Below, in pieces: positions 10,108 through 16,775 of a stretch of DNA of 24,437 nucleotides. Positions within the stretch are counted from its first letter, which is position 1; each line of letters starts with the position of its first letter. The translations under genes were made by a program, and so were the position numbers. Under the pieces are notes generated by a model. That model ran no database searches and was not told the DNA's origin. It saw only the letters and a program-made list of their open reading frames with translations. Origin of the DNA: a virus; IMG/VR virus record IMGVR_UViG_3300025120_000526, positions 1 through 24,437 of that record, one strand, 5' to 3'.

Positions 10108-11064
10108 TTATCCAAATCTTTTTAGAAAGTCTCCATAGGCAACTCTAATACCATTATCAAAGGAGACCTCCGGTTTCCAACCAAGTTCTTTAATCTTTGA
10201 TACGTTCATAACCTTTCGCATTGTTCCATTTGGTTTAGAAGTATCCCAATGAATATTTTCTCTTTCAAGTCCAACCACAGAAGCAATCACTTCGGCAAGG
10301 TCCTTAATAGAAATTTCTTTTCCAGATCCAATGTTGATGGGTTCTTCTTCATTATATGTTTTCATAAGAAGAATACATGCATCTGCTAAGTCATCAACAT
10401 ATAAAAACTCTCTCATAGGAGAACCATCTCCCCAAAGTCTTACTCCCCTATGATATGGACCACCAAGATCATGACCAATGGCATCTCTTGCGTCATGAAT
10501 TTTACGAATCATTCCAGGAATAACATGAGAGTTTTCTGGATGATAATTATCTCCTGGTCCATAAAGATTGCATGGCATCGCACTAATAGCGTTGAATCCA
10601 TACTGCTGACGATAAGATTTACAGAGATAGATACCAGCAATCTTTGCCACCGCATAAGCATCATTGGTGGGTTCAAGTTTACCAGTCATCAACTGATCTT
10701 CAGTGATTGGTAGTTGAGGTTCTTTTGGATAAATGCATGAAGACCCCAGGAACAAATACTTCTTACACCCGTTACGATATGCAGCTTCAATCAAGTTACT
10801 TTCAATCATAAGGTTTTGATAAATCATCTCTGCCTTATGATTTTGATTACCAATGATGCCACCAACTTTAGCAGCAGCATTAAAGACATACTTCGGTTCA
10901 TGCGTTTTGAACCATTTATTTACTTCTCTCTGATTTGTAAGGTCAACCTCTGACCTATCAACCGTCCAGATATTAGTATGTCCTGCAGACTCCAACTGTC
11001 TAATAATAGCAGAACCAACAAGTCCTTTATGTCCTGCGACAAAGATTCTAGATCCCTTCTTCAT
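10108..11064 (-). CDS. fcl: GDP-L-fucose synthase
   Basis: 318 residues, typical of GDP-4-keto-6-deoxy-mannose 3,5-epimerase/4-reductase, which makes GDP-L-fucose with NADPH. Seen: AGHKGLVGS (10-18) nucleotide loop, the AAKVGGI block (64-70) specific to the family, FLGSSCIYP (105-113) with Ser108/Cys110, YAVAK (137-141) with the catalytic Tyr and Lys, and His180 in [11 protein letters not shown], the second epimerase residue. The [16 protein letters not shown] signature is intact. Its start overlaps the end of gmd by 17 bases. It completes the GDP-fucose pathway that feeds the GT11-like genes. A terminator follows at once. Confidence 0.95.
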
Positions 11065-12055
11065 TCTTACACATATCCTCCACTAGTTGATCAAATGATG
11101 TCTTGGGATACCAACCCAAAATTGCTCTTGCTTTTGTTGAGTCTCCAAGAAGTGTGTCTACTTCTGCTGGACGGAAATACTTCTCATTAACTTTGACAAT
11201 AGTTTTGCCAGAGATAGTATCTATACCAACTTCTTCAAGTCCTTCACCGTGCCACTCAATATTCATATTGAAGTAAGGGGCACACTTTTCTAAGAACTCA
11301 CGAACAGAATGTTGTTCATTTGTAGATACAACATAATCATCTCCTTTCTCCTGTTGAAGCATCATCCACATTGCTTCAACAAAATCTTTTGCGTGACCCC
11401 AATCACGTAAAGAATTTAGATTGCCAAGAGAAAGAGTATTCCACTTTCCTTCTGCAATATTCTTCAGAGCAATCGTAATCTTACGAGTAACGAAAGTTTC
11501 GCCACGACGAGGAGATTCGTGATTGAAAAGAATACCAGAACCTGCATGAATTCCATAGGACTCGCGATAGTTCTTCGTCAACCAATATGCATAAATCTTT
11601 GCACATCCATATGGCGATCGTGGATAAAATGGAGTAGTTTCTTTTTGAGGAATTTCTTGAACCTTACCAAACATTTCTGATGTAGATGCTTGGTAGATAC
11701 GCACTTTATCTTCCATTCCTAAAAGACGAACTGCCTCAAGAATACGAAGCGTTCCAAGTCCATCAACGTTACCAGTGTACTCAGGAAGTTCAAACGACAC
11801 CTTCACATGACTCTGAGCAGCAAGATTATAGATTTCATCGGGTTCAACTTTCTTAATAATACTAACCACATTAGTAGAGTCTGTCAAATCTCCATAATGC
11901 AATTCAATATCTTTGAATATATGGTCAATTCTATGAGTATTAATCAAAGAACTACGTCTCACAATACCATGGACCTCATATCCTTTCTCAAGCAATAATT
12001 CTGCTAGATATGAACCATCTTGGCCAGTAATCCCCGTAATTAGAGCGACTTTCAT
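11048..12055 (-). CDS. gmd: GDP-mannose 4,6-dehydratase
   Basis: 335 residues, a little shorter than bacterial Gmd (about 345-375). Conserved parts: [20 protein letters not shown] (6-25), the NADP-binding IVRRSS (31-36), STSEMFG (124-130) with the catalytic Thr/Glu, YGCAK (149-153) with Tyr149/Lys153, and [20 protein letters not shown]. It converts GDP-D-mannose to GDP-4-keto-6-deoxy-D-mannose. It has a sigma70-like promoter of its own (12074-12102) that overlaps the preceding terminator, and is followed by fcl with a 17-base overlap. Separation from the late transferase operon suggests earlier expression. Confidence 0.96.
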
Positions 12056-12108: not shown

Positions 12109-12130
12109 TCATAAGGTCTTGCCATGCACG

Positions 12131-12160
12131 CCACTTGCTCTTTAACCTGAAGCAAGAAAC
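12131..12160. repeat. Hairpin-forming direct repeat, copy 2
   Basis: 30 bases beginning CCACTTGCTC and ending AGCAAGAAAC. Its CTTGCT/AGCAAG arms would form a hairpin. A second copy lies at 12188-12215, 27 bases away. Both are in the untranslated 3' region of the 12220-12462 gene. Confidence 0.7.
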
Positions 12161-12187
12161 AGGGCGGGAGTGTTATCTCCATCCGCA

Positions 12188-12215
12188 CCACTTGCTCTTA
12201 AGTAAAGCAAGAAAC
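12188..12215. repeat. Hairpin-forming direct repeat, copy 1
   Basis: 28 bases with the same ends (CCACTTGCTCTTAA ... AGCAAGAAAC) and the same six-base stem as the copy at 12131-12160; only the loop region differs. It starts 4 bases after the stop of the 12220-12462 gene in the direction of transcription. Confidence 0.7.
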
Positions 12216-12219
12216 CTCA

Positions 12220-14822: not shown

Positions 14823-15070
14823 TAACGGACTTCAAAATTTAGTCTCTTTACTTTACGCTTCTTTCTTTGCTCGTGCCAAGCAATATCTTCAGAAGTTAAT
14901 ACACTATTTTTACTATTTGACTTTCGAGAATTTACCATAACAACCTTAGATAGGTCAACTGCTGTTACGCTGTCCTCTCTTACAGTCATCATATTAGGAC
15001 AACCGCAAACTTGAGTCTTAGTATTACTTACTATTTCTCTGTTGCAGTTCTTACATCTTACAACTAACAT
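14822..15070 (-). CDS. Zinc-ribbon-like protein, 82 aa
   Basis: I use the ATG at 15070-15068 (MLVVRCKNCNREI); a TTG start 21 bases upstream is less likely because of the late box spacing. CKNC (Cys6, Cys9) and CGC (Cys22, Cys24) form a compact zinc-ribbon-like N-terminus. The C-terminus is strongly basic (HEQRKKRKVKRLNFEVR), suggesting nucleic-acid binding. It sits 31 bases downstream of a perfect TATAAATA box (15101-15108), which predicts late expression, and is followed by a coupled small gene. Confidence 0.7.
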   Translation of the reverse strand: MLVVRCKNCNREIVSNTKTQVCGCPNMMTVREDSVTAVDLSKVVMVNSRKSNSKNSVLTSEDIAWHEQRKKRKVKRLNFEVR

Positions 15071-15100
15071 TTTGCATTCTATAAAACTCAATCTACAGGT

Positions 15101-15108
15101 TATTTATA
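15101..15108 (-). promoter_or_regulatory. T4-type late promoter, exact TATAAATA
   Basis: TATAAATA on the minus strand, directly after the 3' end of tRNA-Val and 31 bases before the ATG at 15070. Exact match to the T4 late consensus recognised by gp55-type sigma. Confidence 0.75.
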
Positions 15109-15180
15109 TACTCAAAGAGGGGATCGAACCCCCGACAACCTCCGTGTAAAGGAGACACTCTACCGCTGAGTTATTCGAGC
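15109..15180 (-). tRNA. tRNA-Val (UAC)
   Basis: 72 bases. Acceptor GCTCGAA/TTTGAGT with two G-U pairs, discriminator A. D arm ACTC-AGCGGTA-GAGT, anticodon arm TCTCC-TTTACAC-GGAGG (anticodon UAC), T arm GGGGG-TTCGATC-CCCTC. No CCA is encoded. The late promoter box starts one base after its 3' end. Confidence 0.92.
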
Positions 15181-15327
15181 AATACAATGGACTTATTAGT
15201 ATGCTTGCTATGGGGCATTTTCTAAACCCTAACATACCAACAGTTTCCAAAGGAGCAAAGAGAGTAACCAACTCTCAAGATCACAGTGTGGTTAGCACCG
15301 TCGCGGGCGAGCTCATTCCCCGTCGAA
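15181..15327 (-). ncRNA. Candidate structured RNA between two tRNAs
   Basis: 147 bases between tRNA-Asn and tRNA-Val with no ORF of note, no promoter and no canonical tRNA. On the minus strand it can form GAGAG-TTGGTTA-CTCTC (15260-15276), a GTATG/CATAC long-range stem (15199-15237), and has a GC-rich block (15301-15312) far above the local average. It would be co-transcribed and processed with the tRNAs. T4 has two stable non-tRNA RNAs (C and D) in its tRNA cluster, which is the reason to suspect one here. No sequence match is claimed. Confidence 0.3.
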
Positions 15328-15400
15328 CTCCTCCACCTGGACTCGAACCAGGGACAACAGAATTAACAGTTCCGTGCTCTACCAACTGAGCTATAGAGGA
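15328..15400 (-). tRNA. tRNA-Asn (GUU)
   Basis: 73 bases with a full cloverleaf: acceptor TCCTCTA/TGGAGGA, D arm GCTC-AGTTGGTA-GAGC, anticodon arm CGGAA-CTGTTAA-TTCTG (anticodon GUU), T arm CCTGG-TTCGAGT-CCAGG, discriminator G as expected for Asn. No CCA. Its first ten bases are also the last codons and stop of the 15391-15591 gene. Confidence 0.95.
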
Positions 15401-15591
15401 TTGTTTGCCTTTTCTTCCTTATTGGTCTTGAAGTAGAGTTTATAATATCTCCCCTTCATTTCATTGATCGCATTCATATCTTCCTCAAACCCCATATATT
15501 TTAGCATTTGAGAAGAACCTTCCAACTCACTAATGAGTCTAAGGATGTTGACTGCTACTGGTGGTTGTCCACCAAAATCATATTTACCCAT
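15391..15591 (-). CDS. Hypothetical 66-aa protein between tRNAs
   Basis: The frame runs from ATG 15591 and ends with TAG inside the 5' acceptor strand of tRNA-Asn. No Shine-Dalgarno sequence is seen before the ATG (TTTCTTCTTTT). The product has a helix-rich centre (AVNILRLISELEGSSQMLKYMGF) and a basic C-terminus (RYYKLYFKTNKEEK). No membrane segment, no known motif. It lies 17 bases behind tRNA-Arg, so translation would need an mRNA that survives tRNA processing. Plausible but unproven gene. Confidence 0.55.
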   Translation of the reverse strand: MGKYDFGGQPPVAVNILRLISELEGSSQMLKYMGFEEDMNAINEMKGRYYKLYFKTNKEEKANNPL

Positions 15592-15608
15592 AAAAGAAGA
15601 AAGGACAA

Positions 15609-15681
15609 CGCCCCGTGGAGGATTCGCACCCCCGACCGCATTCTTAGAAGGAACGTGCTCTGTCTCCTGAGCTAACGGGGC
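15609..15681 (-). tRNA. tRNA-Arg (UCU)
   Basis: 73 bases. Acceptor GCCCCGT/ACGGGGC, D arm GCTC-AGGAGACA-GAGC, anticodon arm CGTTC-CTTCTAA-GAATG (anticodon UCU, reading AGA/AGG), T stem GGGGG/CCTCC, discriminator G. The T-loop reads TGCGAAT instead of TTCGAAT, i.e. G at the position usually pseudouridylated. No CCA encoded. Confidence 0.93.
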
Positions 15682-15710
15682 AAACTAATCACAGATTGTG
15701 ATCGTACTCC

Positions 15711-15738
15711 CAATGGCAATTAGGACATAATGCCATTG
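15711..15738. repeat. 8-bp stem hairpin between tRNA-Lys and tRNA-Arg
   Basis: CAATGGCA (15711-15718) and TGCCATTG (15731-15738) pair perfectly around a 12-base loop. No T-tract follows, so it is unlikely to be an intrinsic terminator; a processing signal for the tRNA precursor is possible. Confidence 0.65.
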
Positions 15739-15746
15739 AGTCATGA

Positions 15747-15770
15747 GGCAATCATATCGATATGATTGCC
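15747..15770. repeat. 24-bp perfect palindrome
   Basis: The 24 bases from 15747 to 15770 (GGCAATCATATC followed by its exact reverse complement) form an uninterrupted palindrome centred on ATCGAT. It begins 4 bases after the 3' end of tRNA-Lys in the direction of transcription. As RNA it makes a 10-bp stem with a minimal loop; as DNA it is a dimeric-protein type site. Confidence 0.85.
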
Positions 15771-15773
15771 AAG

Positions 15774-15846
15774 TGGGTTTAGTCAGGTTCGAACTGACGA
15801 CTTACAGGTTAAAAGCCCGCTACTCTACCAACTGAGTTATAAACCC
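15774..15846 (-). tRNA. tRNA-Lys (UUU)
   Basis: 73 bases. Acceptor GGGTTTA/TAAACCC, discriminator A, D arm ACTC-AGTTGGTA-GAGT, anticodon arm GCGGG-CTTTTAA-CCTGT (anticodon UUU), T arm GTCAG-TTCGAAC-CTGAC. All stems are good. No CCA is encoded. It lies 6 bases behind the Tyr-like remnant and 4 bases before the 24-bp palindrome. Confidence 0.95.
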
Positions 15847-15852
15847 GTGAAA

Positions 15853-15933
15853 TGGACAGGATTGGATTTAAACCAACATAGGCAGAGCCAGTGGATTTAC
15901 AGTCAAACGCTGCTACCACTGATCTAAAGAGGA
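15853..15933 (-). pseudogene. Degenerate tRNA-Tyr-like (GUA) gene
   Basis: The 3' two-thirds look like a class II tyrosine tRNA: anticodon loop CTGTAAA (GUA), an extra arm with a GGC-TCT-GCC stem, T arm GTTGG-TTTAAAT-CCAAT, and an acceptor 3' strand CCTGTCC with discriminator A. The 5' acceptor strand that should read GGACAGG is absent (TCCTCTT is found there), the D stem does not pair, and the anticodon stem has two mismatches. It is probably a decayed tRNA, though a strongly non-canonical but working tRNA cannot be excluded. Confidence 0.5.
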
Positions 15934-15938
15934 ATAAT

Positions 15939-15971
15939 GGTAGTTCCTATCGCCGCTAACCCTGAACTACC
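15939..15971. repeat. 8-bp stem hairpin upstream of the tRNA cluster
   Basis: GGTAGTTC (15939-15946) and GAACTACC (15964-15971) pair perfectly around 17 bases. It lies between the stop of the 15979-16203 gene and the Tyr-like tRNA, within the transcript started at 16012-16040. No T-tract, so it is more likely a processing or stability element than a terminator. Confidence 0.65.
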
Positions 15972-15978
15972 AAGGGGG

Positions 15979-16203
15979 TCACCGCAGTTGATTATGATCA
16001 TCAACGTACCTATCATACTCGTCTTCAGAGATTTTGTCAAGTGATACAACTTCTAAATCTTCTTTAGGATCGAACCACTCATCAAATTCTTCCATGATTG
16101 CCATTTGATCGTAGATTCGTTCTATACCTTTATCTTGATACTCTTCTACTTTACCAATTGCCCATTCACGAACTTCAAATACAATTTCTTCAGTCTCCAT
16201 CAT
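15979..16203 (-). CDS. Hypothetical acidic 74-aa protein
   Basis: The open frame extends back to 16419, but that part lies antiphase inside the endonuclease gene. I take the start as ATG-ATG at 16203/16200, overlapping the endonuclease stop by 11-14 bases with a GAAAAGAC sequence upstream. The product (METEEIVFEVREWAIGKVEEYQ...) is very acidic, with two amphipathic helices and FDEWFDPKEDLEVV in the middle. No family recognised. A sigma70-like promoter (16241-16269) lies just upstream, and another (16012-16040) inside its 3' end. Confidence 0.65.
   Translation of the reverse strand: MMETEEIVFEVREWAIGKVEEYQDKGIERIYDQMAIMEEFDEWFDPKEDLEVVSLDKISEDEYDRYVDDHNQLR
16012..16040 (-). promoter_or_regulatory. 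Sigma70-like promoter for the tRNA cluster (TTGACA-17-TATGAT)
   Basis: TTGACA at 16040-16035, 17 bases, TATGAT at 16017-16012 on the minus strand. Same hexamers and spacing as the promoter at 13423-13451 that precedes the other tRNA block. It lies inside the 3' end of the 15979-16203 gene and points into the tRNA cluster. Confidence 0.7.
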
Positions 16204-16633
16204 AATAGTCTTTTCGGAAGTACCTGCTGAGGATGTTACTATTGTAGTAGGCAGGTCCTCCTGTGTCAAGTGATTCGGTAAGGACTCCGTGGATAAAGAG
16301 TTGTTTTGTTTCTTCGAAGTTTGTTTTGCCACCTGTTTTATGTAAAGACAGGATAGTTCTACTAAAATTCTGTCTGCCCAATTTGTCAATGTCCGCTTTA
16401 AGTTCTGGACAAGACCCATAATACTTTCTCCAATCAGATTCTTGTTTTACCTTGCGCTTCTTTCCTTTTGGTGTTCTGAATGACCAAAAATACTTTCGGC
16501 CAAGGTATTGTCGTTGGTTTGTGAGATTGGTAATGTTATAAACAAAACCAAAGTTGTCCCGAATAAGGCTACCATCAAAGGGAGTGCCCAAATAGACCCA
16601 TGGGTTTTCATAATCAGTATCTATATTCTTCAA
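16190..16633 (-). CDS. GIY-YIG-type endonuclease-like protein
   Basis: 147 residues. GFVYNITNLTNQRQYLGRKY (29-48) fits the GIY-YIG core (here 'FVY' ... 'YLG') with the conserved Arg/Lys after it. SDWRKYYGSCPELKADIDKLG (66-86) and NFSRTIL match the second block of phage GIY-YIG nucleases, and NFEETKQLF (105-113) carries the metal-binding Glu. No ATG exists in the frame: the only start after the upstream in-frame stop is TTG at 16633, inside the end of the 16614-16775 ORF. It lies between nrdB and the tRNA cluster, a place where free-standing homing endonucleases are common in T4-like phages. The nuclease call is good; the homing role is inferred. Confidence 0.75.
   Translation of the reverse strand: MKNIDTDYENPWVYLGTPFDGSLIRDNFGFVYNITNLTNQRQYLGRKYFWSFRTPKGKKRKVKQESDWRKYYGSCPELKADIDKLGRQNFSRTILSLHKTGGKTNFEETKQLFIHGVLTESLDTGGPAYYNSNILSRYFRKDYYDGD
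16241..16269 (-). promoter_or_regulatory. Sigma70-like promoter inside the endonuclease gene
   Basis: TTGACA at 16269-16264, 17 bases, TACAAT at 16246-16241 on the minus strand. Perfect -35 and 5/6 -10. It would express the 74-aa gene and tRNAs independently of the endonuclease. Confidence 0.6.
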
Positions 16634-16775
16634 TGATGTTCAATACCTTATCGAGATATTTATGTGCCATATCTCGATCCCCTTGCCATACTGTCTTGGG
16701 TTCTTCGTATACTTCATTTTTTAATTGAAGTACACGATTTTTAAACTCTTCTTTCTTCAATTGATTTTTAGGCAT
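16614..16775 (-). CDS. Hypothetical 53-aa protein downstream of nrdB
   Basis: ATG at 16775-16773, stop TGA at 16616-16614. The product starts MPKNQLKKEEFKNRVLQLKN and ends VLNIIEEYRY. It is highly charged, mostly helical, with KYLDKVLNIIEEYRY as an amphipathic end. It overlaps the start of the endonuclease by 20 bases, consistent with coupling to that gene's weak TTG start. A GC-rich hairpin (16777-16798) lies just ahead of its ATG and might limit its translation. No family recognised. Confidence 0.6.
   Translation of the reverse strand: MPKNQLKKEEFKNRVLQLKNEVYEEPKTVWQGDRDMAHKYLDKVLNIIEEYRY

Follow-up and report, generated by a model that had tools for sequence, protein, structure and literature searches.

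The hairpin at positions 15939-15971 of the viral DNA record IMGVR_UViG_3300025120_000526 (IMG/VR; positions 1 to 24,437, all 24,437 nucleotides, here called the window) is, on well-supported comparative evidence, helix S2 of an RNA of about 65 nt read from the minus strand (16005-15939), in which a 5' hairpin is followed by an H-type pseudoknot. In the same tRNA cluster, a 24-nt palindrome at 15747-15770 appears to be a collapsed derivative of a class of promoters that form hairpins between tRNA genes, and not a working member of that class. The original prediction had grouped four structures as punctuating the tRNA cluster (the palindrome, two 8-bp hairpins and a small dyad) and had suggested that they may be processing signals, recombination sites where tRNA cassettes were inserted, or binding sites for a dimeric protein. 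All four are present at their positions and none has a T-tract, but they differ in kind and are not one thing: the palindrome appears to be promoter-derived, and the 15939-15971 hairpin is one of three helices of a conserved, pseudoknotted RNA with a predicted promoter of its own. The sequence itself shows how the RNA folds, where it lies, that a promoter matches in front of it and that the palindrome resembles the hairpin promoters. The structure of the RNA is well supported; what it does we infer.

A conserved RNA with an H-type pseudoknot

In the window the RNA and its predicted promoter comprise the following parts, with ORF standing for open reading frame.

16035-16040, minus strand: -35 box TTGACA, within the 3' end of ORF 15979-16419; the predicted promoter matches at 11 of 12 positions and has a spacer of 17
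16012-16017, minus strand: -10 box TATGAT, ending 6 nt upstream of P1
15987-16005, minus strand: P1, 5' terminal hairpin GTTGAT-GATCATA-ATCAAC; predicted +1 is the G at 16005
15982-15986, minus strand: conserved unpaired TGCGG between P1 and S1
15976-15981, minus strand: 5' strand of S1, the pseudoknot helix, TGACCC, of which TGA is the stop codon of ORF 15979-16419
15972-15975, minus strand: conserved loop L1, CCTT
15964-15971, minus strand: 5' strand of S2, GGTAGTTC, the right arm of the 15939-15971 hairpin
15957-15962, minus strand: 3' strand of S1, GGGTTA, in the loop of the 15939-15971 hairpin, pairing with 15976-15981
15947-15956, minus strand: near-invariant loop L3, GCGGCGATAG
15939-15946, minus strand: 3' strand of S2, GAACTACC, end of the conserved RNA

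The predicted promoter, TTGACA-17-TATGAT at 16040-16012, lies within the last codons of ORF 15979-16419. The arms reported for the hairpin (GGTAGTTC/GAACTACC at 15939-15946/15964-15971) are the two strands of S2, and the parts follow one another in the H-type order S1a-L1-S2a-L2-S1b-L3-S2b with covarying S1 and S2. Model R1 of the RNA matches the window at 15938-16013 with 75.3 bits.

The RNA was recovered in 264 occurrences in 263 loci of cyanophages and viral contigs, which reduce to 177 unique copies with a median length of 65 nt and a common plan: a sigma-70 promoter, a variable P1, TGCGG, the 5' strand of S1, CCTT, the 5' strand of S2, an A, the 3' strand of S1, GCGGCGAYAG, the 3' strand of S2 and, usually, a tRNA. 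The loop pattern and an S2 of at least 5 bp were required for the parsing of the 177 copies, and the 5' strand of S1 was taken as the best of seven offsets. The pairing positions of S1 are then Watson-Crick in 916 cases, G.U in 139, A.C in two and other in five, and those of S2 (the eight innermost) are Watson-Crick in 1394, G.U in 19, A.C in one and other in two. The excess of G.U over A.C points to an RNA of the minus strand, that of the element. S1 alone occurs in 37 fully paired sequence combinations and in five incompletely paired ones.

Covariation was assessed in an alignment of 102 rows, one for each S1/S2 combination, which holds 101 of the 177 unique copies and the window; its rows were filtered for six of six pairs in S1 and at least seven in S2, so that its 100% pairing is partly by construction. 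Ten of the 15 pairs are altered on both sides, and the covariation amounts to 0.522, as compared with 0.221 after shuffling and 0.014-0.095 with slid partners. P1 lies flush with TGCGG and is represented by 50 different stem pairs among the 177 copies; it scores at least 12 in 151 of them, against 10% of shuffles (all shuffles here are mononucleotide shuffles). It is well supported by these comparisons that the three helices covary, the pseudoknot helix S1 included.

Retrieval with parts of the element gave the remaining parts, and the counts from it, like those over the 177 copies, are less filtered than the alignment. Of 30 unique matches fetched by the 5' half alone, 27 carry a complete S1 and S2 and three look unrelated; the strict L3 motif GGCGAYAG is present in 25, three of the misses being the unrelated ones. 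The main loop alone retrieved S1, S2 and TGCGG in 16 of 17 cases, and a degenerate loop retrieved everything in 72 of 80, with three matches in unrelated repeats and five deviating in S1 or S2. CTGCG[GA] is found in 172 of 175 copies. L3 reads GCGGCGATAG in 161 of the 177 copies, GCGGCGACAG in 14 and GAGGCGATAG in two, much of the loop having been fixed by the search patterns and the parser; in P-SSM2 it reads GCGGCTATAG. The conservation spans unrelated flanks. Folded without pseudoknots, the 73-nt stretch 15938-16010 is of ordinary stability (z -0.5), and the weight of this stretch comes from conservation, not from predicted folding stability.

Promoter, neighbours and distribution of the RNA

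An upstream promoter score of at least 10 of 12 was obtained for 147 of 174 copies, as compared with 1.0% of shuffles. In 136 of the 149 scored cases, 6 nt separate the end of the -10 box from the first base of P1; each of the 155 copies that has a stem of at least 5 bp carries a G as this first base. The spacing between promoter and P1 suggests that the RNA most likely starts with P1.

In 123 of the 175 copies, 0-5 nt separate S2 from a following tRNA (Arg-TCT 90, Pro-TGG 32, Lys 1); 42 have no tRNA within 400 nt, six lie at a contig end and four have a later tRNA. Downstream of non-tRNA copies lie, among others, genes for a photosynthetic reaction-centre family protein (psbA-like by eye, in L182), a PBP-family solute-binding protein (PstS-like by eye, in L295), a tryptophan halogenase family protein (L208) and a phrog_3704 protein (P-SSM2). 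The gene PSSM2_175 (L330:2587-3255), with the RNA just upstream, is annotated as purM, yet its match is to phrog_3704 ('ferredoxin', 5e-114). In locus L174 the element stands alone, between a promoter and a strong terminator that lies 44 nt behind S2, and in L026 and L046 promoter and RNA are retained and the tRNA is gone.

Several loci show further features next to the element. Directly after the RNA of L026 and L046 there is a hairpin TTGCCAGA...TCTGGCA, like that behind tRNA-Pro elsewhere. Beside the element of L263, at about 5200, tRNA-Arg(TCT) is apparently split in the anticodon loop by an insertion that is group I intron-like by eye. In L204:2098-2556 and L257:5299-5757 the tRNA-Arg directly after the RNA is broken by an ORF-bearing insertion, the protein of which has, in L204, a weak match to HNH families. 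In L159, L171 and L176 the RNA is followed by a further shared stretch, TTTCGAGGAGATGGATGTGCCTCGTGGGTCGCCCCCACT..., which may be another structured RNA.

The RNA is found in Synechococcus and Prochlorococcus phages (including P-SSM2) and in more than 200 viral contigs, and in none of the annotation tables or Rfam matches examined. In blastn searches with 15760-16000 and 15925-16000, positions 15938-15990 matched 53 of 53 nt in ACG-2014f genomes, with 98% identity in S-SCSM2R and 85-96% in S-SM2, Bellamy, RB11-B and relatives, SynMITS9220M01 and S-SKS1; the 57 records in total belong for the most part to one species and match mostly in unannotated stretches. IMG/VR contains 90 stretches with an exact 25-mer and at least 120 with the degenerate loop, among which L220 and L240 are unrelated repeats. 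R1 gave one accepted copy each in 20 of 26 whole records, which had mostly been chosen for a known match and were scored with stricter filters; the six negative records stay negative under laxer filters (best E 0.17). One copy was also accepted in P-SSM2, and none in S-PM2, Syn9, P-SSM4, S-RSM4, P-HM2, S-ShM2, S-CRM01 and P-SSP7. Weak R1 matches in P-SSM4 (E 0.02), P-SSP7 (E 0.05), a second site, W14, of S-B43 (E 0.006) and others were taken as chance; the place in P-SSM4 was rejected, as it has no P1 pairing and the conserved loop is absent. In GTDB genomes the exact 22-mer was found 0 times and the degenerate pattern eight times, with about 7.5 matches expected by chance, and R1 matched there only the scanned stretch.

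The palindrome and hairpin promoters between tRNA genes

The features surrounding the palindrome are listed below in the direction of transcription.

15773-15846, minus strand: tRNA-Lys(TTT)
15747-15770, minus strand: 24-nt palindrome, hairpin of the tRNA-Lys trailer, with TTGGCA at 15772-15767 and TATGAT at 15756-15751 (spacer 10)
15735-15742, minus strand: GACTCAAT, which in the relative L260 is found at the start of the tRNA-Arg behind tRNA-Lys
15711-15738, minus strand: 8-bp hairpin (10 bp folded with its edges) in the tRNA-Lys/tRNA-Arg spacer
15690-15700, no strand: CACA-GAT-TGTG dyad, chance
15608-15682, minus strand: tRNA-Arg(TCT)

The palindrome, GGCAATCATATCGATATGATTGCC, is the sole perfect palindrome of the window with a half-length above 8, and 0.0025 perfect 24-nt palindromes are expected there by chance; of the four structures it is the only one that chance would seldom produce. 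As RNA it folds with -13.4 kcal/mol (z -4.7). The expectation that the same palindromes would be seen in relatives was borne out for the hairpin and not for the sequence: the exact palindrome occurs 0 times in IMG/VR, while a hairpin is kept with a compensatory change behind the same tRNA-Lys in L260, and in five loci with a 96% similar tRNA-Lys (L016 = S-SKS1, L201, L304, L474 and L479) the corresponding place is taken by a hairpin promoter whose arms are different (TTGACAAGA...TCTTGTC).

L260 carries the conserved RNA, the same tRNA-Lys and then CTTGACAATCATACCTAAAATTGATATGATTGTCTCATGACTCAAT, with tRNA-Arg beginning at or next to GACTCAAT. The promoter that makes up this spacer (TTGACA, 17, TATGAT) is also a 10-bp hairpin. 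Its counterpart in the window, CTTGGCAATCATATCGATATGATTGCCTCATGACTCAAT, differs in one arm pair (A-T to G-C, the stem being kept) and in a loop that is 7 nt shorter, which leaves a spacing of 10. The GACTCAAT of the window looks like a stub of a lost tRNA-Arg. Among 14 distinct trailers behind a tRNA-Lys of at least 80% similarity, the next tRNA occupies four (by eye).

The spacer of L260 represents a class with the motif TTGACAATYA-N13-TATRATTGTC (33 nt), the arms of which hold the -35 and -10 boxes. The motif search fixed the arms and left free the spacer (6-19 allowed), the combination at positions 9 and 27 and the nearness of a tRNA. It gave 136 unique matches in the analysed loci, 113 of them with a spacer of exactly 17. 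Of the 124 matches with a spacer of 16-18, a tRNA end lies 0 or -1 nt from the start in 97, the next tRNA follows after 3-11 nt in 84, and both hold for 70. Positions 9 and 27 of these 124 carry C-G in 96, T-A in 22 and a mismatch in six, whereas about 40 mismatches would be expected if the two positions were independent. The 12 matches with a spacer below 16 include only one, that of the window, adjoining a tRNA. Here 15747-15772 has pairing arms of the form TTGRCAATYA / TATRATTGYC and starts 0 nt after tRNA-Lys, with its spacer of 10 lying outside the range of 16-18. A promoter that was there first and then collapsed is suggested by the mostly 17-spaced class; in the window the promoter spacing would have been lost and the hairpin alone kept.

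Similar stems are frequent behind phage tRNAs. Of 372 nonredundant tRNA trailers, 73 start a stem of at least 7 bp within 14 nt, and 60 of these 73 do so at 0-2 nt, the control values being 2.5% for shuffles and 2.7-4.4% further downstream. A T-tract (at least 5 T in 8 nt) follows seven of the 73 stems, and the palindrome of the window is the longest stem among the 372 trailers. 'Processing signals' was accordingly the nearest of the three guesses of the original prediction, in that stem-loops free of T-tracts behind phage tRNA 3' ends are a real class that includes the palindrome. As DNA, a hairpin promoter would be the start of transcription of the next tRNA, and as RNA it would form a stem-loop on the trailer of the upstream tRNA, where it probably guides or protects 3' maturation.

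The two remaining structures carry less information. The hairpin with arms CAATGGCA/TGCCATTG at 15711-15718/15731-15738 folds (15709-15740) with -13.1 kcal/mol (z -3.6); no counterpart of it was found, the Lys-Arg spacer giving only weak matches against phage records (best E 0.2), and it may be a trailer-type hairpin formed from tRNA debris. The window contains 111 inverted-repeat pairs of at least 8 nt within 60 nt, mismatches allowed, so 8-bp arms alone are not rare. The CACA-GAT-TGTG dyad is a chance product: with the pairing probability of the palindrome computation, 0.262^4 x 24,427 = about 115 such 4-bp dyads are expected. No terminator-like site coincides with any of the four structures in a scan of 15000-16700, its single match lying at 15602-15614 (minus), and none of the four has a G+C-rich stem followed by a T-tract.

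Possible functions and alternative explanations

An RNA of about 65 nt would be transcribed from the minus strand from its own sigma-70 promoter, beginning at the first P1 base pair and continuing into the pseudoknot of S1 (TGACCC/GGGTTA) with S2 (GGTAGTTC/GAACTACC). A cut by RNase P at the 5' end of the adjoining tRNA would free it from the tRNA cluster, and the product may well be a small stable RNA, with the downstream genes as passengers. Four observations suggest action in trans: there is usually one copy, the RNA occurs whatever gene lies downstream, L174 forms a stand-alone unit, and the RNA has persisted where the tRNA next to it is broken, as in the window, or gone, as in L026 and L046. 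Somewhat more tentatively, the whole may represent an undescribed trans-acting small RNA of cyanophages, matured by RNase P and directed at a host target in early infection, together with dual-coded promoter/trailer elements of 33 nt.

Several points weigh against this explanation. The transcription start, the 3' end and the abundance of the RNA are predictions. The promoter score is below 9 in 19 of 174 copies, including those of S-SM2 and Bellamy, in which P1 is poor too. Many reference cyanophages are without the RNA, and the contig L120 has two copies, each before a tRNA, the only such locus of the 263. Among the 46 copies that lie away from contig ends and have no recognised tRNA directly behind them, an ATG-initiated ORF of at least 45 aa starts within 160 nt in 36, and a terminator-like site lies within 220 nt in only four (as compared with seven of 119 tRNA copies and about one of each group in shuffles). 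A free small RNA is thus not obvious in these contexts, where a role in cis is possible. As to the palindrome, the arms of the window were found behind the same tRNA-Lys in L260 only, and the hairpin may have been selected as DNA (cruciform), with which the pairing alone is compatible.

The strongest rival, although rather unlikely, is a nascent RNA acting in cis like the put RNA of phage HK022, which would bind the transcribing RNA polymerase and carry it past pauses and hairpins along the extended minus-strand stretch of tRNAs and small genes. Size and position agree with it: in the available part of its description, putL is an RNA of about 70 nt with two structured domains just after an early promoter (PMC9378689), and the copies found here lie at the predicted +1, and are followed for the most part by unrelated genes with no intervening terminator; hairpins abound in tRNA trailers. 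The fold does not agree, as putRNA consists of two stem-loops and the word 'pseudoknot' is absent from the available text of that paper. Further evidence against it is the usual single copy per genome, the strong terminator 44 nt after S2 in L174, the predicted own promoters of some tRNAs within clusters, and the existence of tRNA-cluster phages without a copy (S-SCSM1, S-BM3, Sf-CH1b and S-CAM4).

The RNA might instead protect the 5' end of the transcript. RNase E and RNase J are 5'-end-dependent nucleases, against which a flush hairpin with a pseudoknot could act; P1 starts at the predicted first nucleotide, invariably a G in the 155 copies whose stems have at least 5 bp, and such a function would suit tRNA and mRNA contexts alike. 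This is an improbable explanation, since P1 alone would suffice, which leaves the near-invariance of L1, L3 and TGCGG to be explained in some other way; as a genome usually has a single copy, the remaining phage transcripts would do without such protection.

For the hairpin promoters, the corresponding alternative is an operator in which the palindrome serves one dimeric regulator of tRNA promoters and not an RNA hairpin. It is a shade less probable than 5' protection, even though the 136 unique matches have a DNA symmetry from -35 to -10. In a set of loci fetched before the search for the hairpin-promoter motif, a stem of at least 6 bp with its 5' arm at -35 was found at 31 of 51 nonredundant promoters directly after a tRNA and at 12 of 480 elsewhere (1.1% with shuffled spacers), which ties the symmetry to the trailer position. 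Positions 9 and 27 covary by self-pairing, and of 29 loci with at least two hairpins (a set partly retrieved by the hairpin-promoter pattern) 19 combine hairpins with different arms. One dimeric protein for all hairpins, as had been suggested, is thereby disfavoured; the differing arms and the enrichment at tRNA trailers fit an RNA stem on the upstream tRNA precursor better than one operator, and the hairpin looks like a feature of the tRNA trailer.

A ligand-binding riboswitch of the H-type pseudoknot kind is very unlikely. The RNA has conserved unpaired nucleotides in such a pseudoknot and in some phages precedes metabolic genes (reaction-centre protein, solute-binding protein, halogenase), but these genes are without a common pathway, and a tRNA 0-5 nt away in 123 of 175 copies leaves no space for an expression platform. 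No Rfam family (release 15, including wcaG, manA and the riboswitch classes) reaches its gathering threshold on the element. At E up to 10, only a sub-threshold opposite-strand match to sR42 (15987-16010, E 2.5) within 15680-16010 of the window touches the element, at its P1 end, and at E up to 1 no match overlaps the element in eight further loci. Mimicry of the 3' end of 16S rRNA, that is of the anti-Shine-Dalgarno sequence, was also considered and dropped, the conserved loop being CCTT and not CCTCCTT. Type III antitoxin pseudoknots and a self-cleaving ribozyme were among the other readings set aside.

Recombination or homing sites of tRNA cassette insertion, the remaining proposal, can hardly explain the palindromes: the window bears signs of tRNA turnover, namely a chimeric Tyr-like remnant and an 8-nt remnant of a tRNA-Arg start, but when 15600-15980 was compared with the whole window the sole further match was the palindrome on its own opposite strand, the pseudoknot RNA keeps three helices, the arms of the palindrome fit self-pairing plus -35/-10 boxes, and the hairpin promoters keep a spacing and a stem covariation that an insertion site would not need.

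Comparison with known systems

One of the closest described RNAs is the put RNA of HK022 (putL, putR), which is likewise phage-encoded, about 70 nt long, with two structured domains, and placed after an early promoter in the case of putL; according to the available part of its description it binds the beta' zinc-binding domain with two stem-loops and acts whatever genes lie downstream (PMC9378689). The RNA described here has a predicted promoter and a median of 65 nt, as would be expected of such an element, but combines a hairpin with an H-type pseudoknot in which S1 crosses S2 and covaries, occurs usually once and mostly abuts a tRNA. GOLLD and ROOL are also structured phage RNAs of unknown function near tRNA islands, but are much larger (GOLLD often more than 800 nt) and form multimeric cages, as stated in the passages available (PMC12286853); the RNA of about 65 nt gives no match to their Rfam models. 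The wcaG and manA RNAs, described in the accessible part of PMC2864571 as conserved structured RNAs of T4-like cyanophages and marine metagenomes, located in potential 5' untranslated regions, are matched by it neither in the one model nor in the other, and the window has a separate true wcaG RNA. Passages of freely accessible articles (subscription papers, preprints and supplements lying outside this set), including PMC2864571, PMC9964418, PMC12197685, PMC2518516, PMC3037559, PMC12286853 and PMC9378689, mention neither the pseudoknot RNA nor the hairpin promoters.

The trailer hairpins resemble intrinsic terminators as stem-loops after a gene, but only seven of the 73 trailer stems have a T-tract and the arms of hairpin promoters contain -35/-10 boxes. 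A pseudoknot at the 5' end of a T4-like phage transcript is known from the leader of T4 gene 32. In the contexts examined here no gene 32 was seen downstream, and the likeness is one of structure and place.

The conserved RNA offers a target for the study of host takeover by cyanophages. The hairpin promoters, with a promoter and a tRNA trailer stem packed into the same 33 nt, open the order, expression and maturation of phage tRNAs to tests at single-base level.

Other features of the window

By its best matches in the phage collection, S-SM2, Bellamy and SynMITS9220M01, the window is a fragment of a T4-like cyanophage. Its ORFs include nrdA- and nrdB-like genes (by position and by eye) and a GIY-YIG-like one, with sugar-type genes downstream of the tRNA cluster. 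The cluster is on the minus strand and is transcribed in the order promoter, conserved RNA, Tyr-like remnant, tRNA-Lys, palindrome, hairpin, tRNA-Arg, ORF, tRNA-Asn and tRNA-Val. Two further RNA features were noted.

15853-15933, minus strand: chimeric tRNA remnant, not recognised by ARAGORN; cmscan 13 bits, below threshold
12120-12219, minus strand: wcaG RNA (RF01761), 93 bits

In the remnant, 15853-15904 represents the 3' portion of a tRNA-Tyr (92% over 52 nt, with the one in L104 as reference), and 15905-15933 resembles, by eye, the 5' half of the tRNA-Asn of the window; the two parts are possibly joined at a shared ACTGT. The wcaG RNA lies upstream of ORF 11048-12055, which is GDP-mannose dehydratase-like by eye. 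The GIY-YIG-like ORF 16190-16633 (minus) has a stronger match to phrog_447 ('NAD synthetase') than to homing endonuclease families, and the 'NAD synthetase' label, found in several phage records, is probably wrong.

Directly at the 3' end of tRNA-Val, TATAAATA at 15101-15108 (minus) is like the T4 late promoter, quoted as TATAAAT in the accessible part of PMC3037559. Sequences similar to TATAAATA come after trailer hairpins in L213 and L323.

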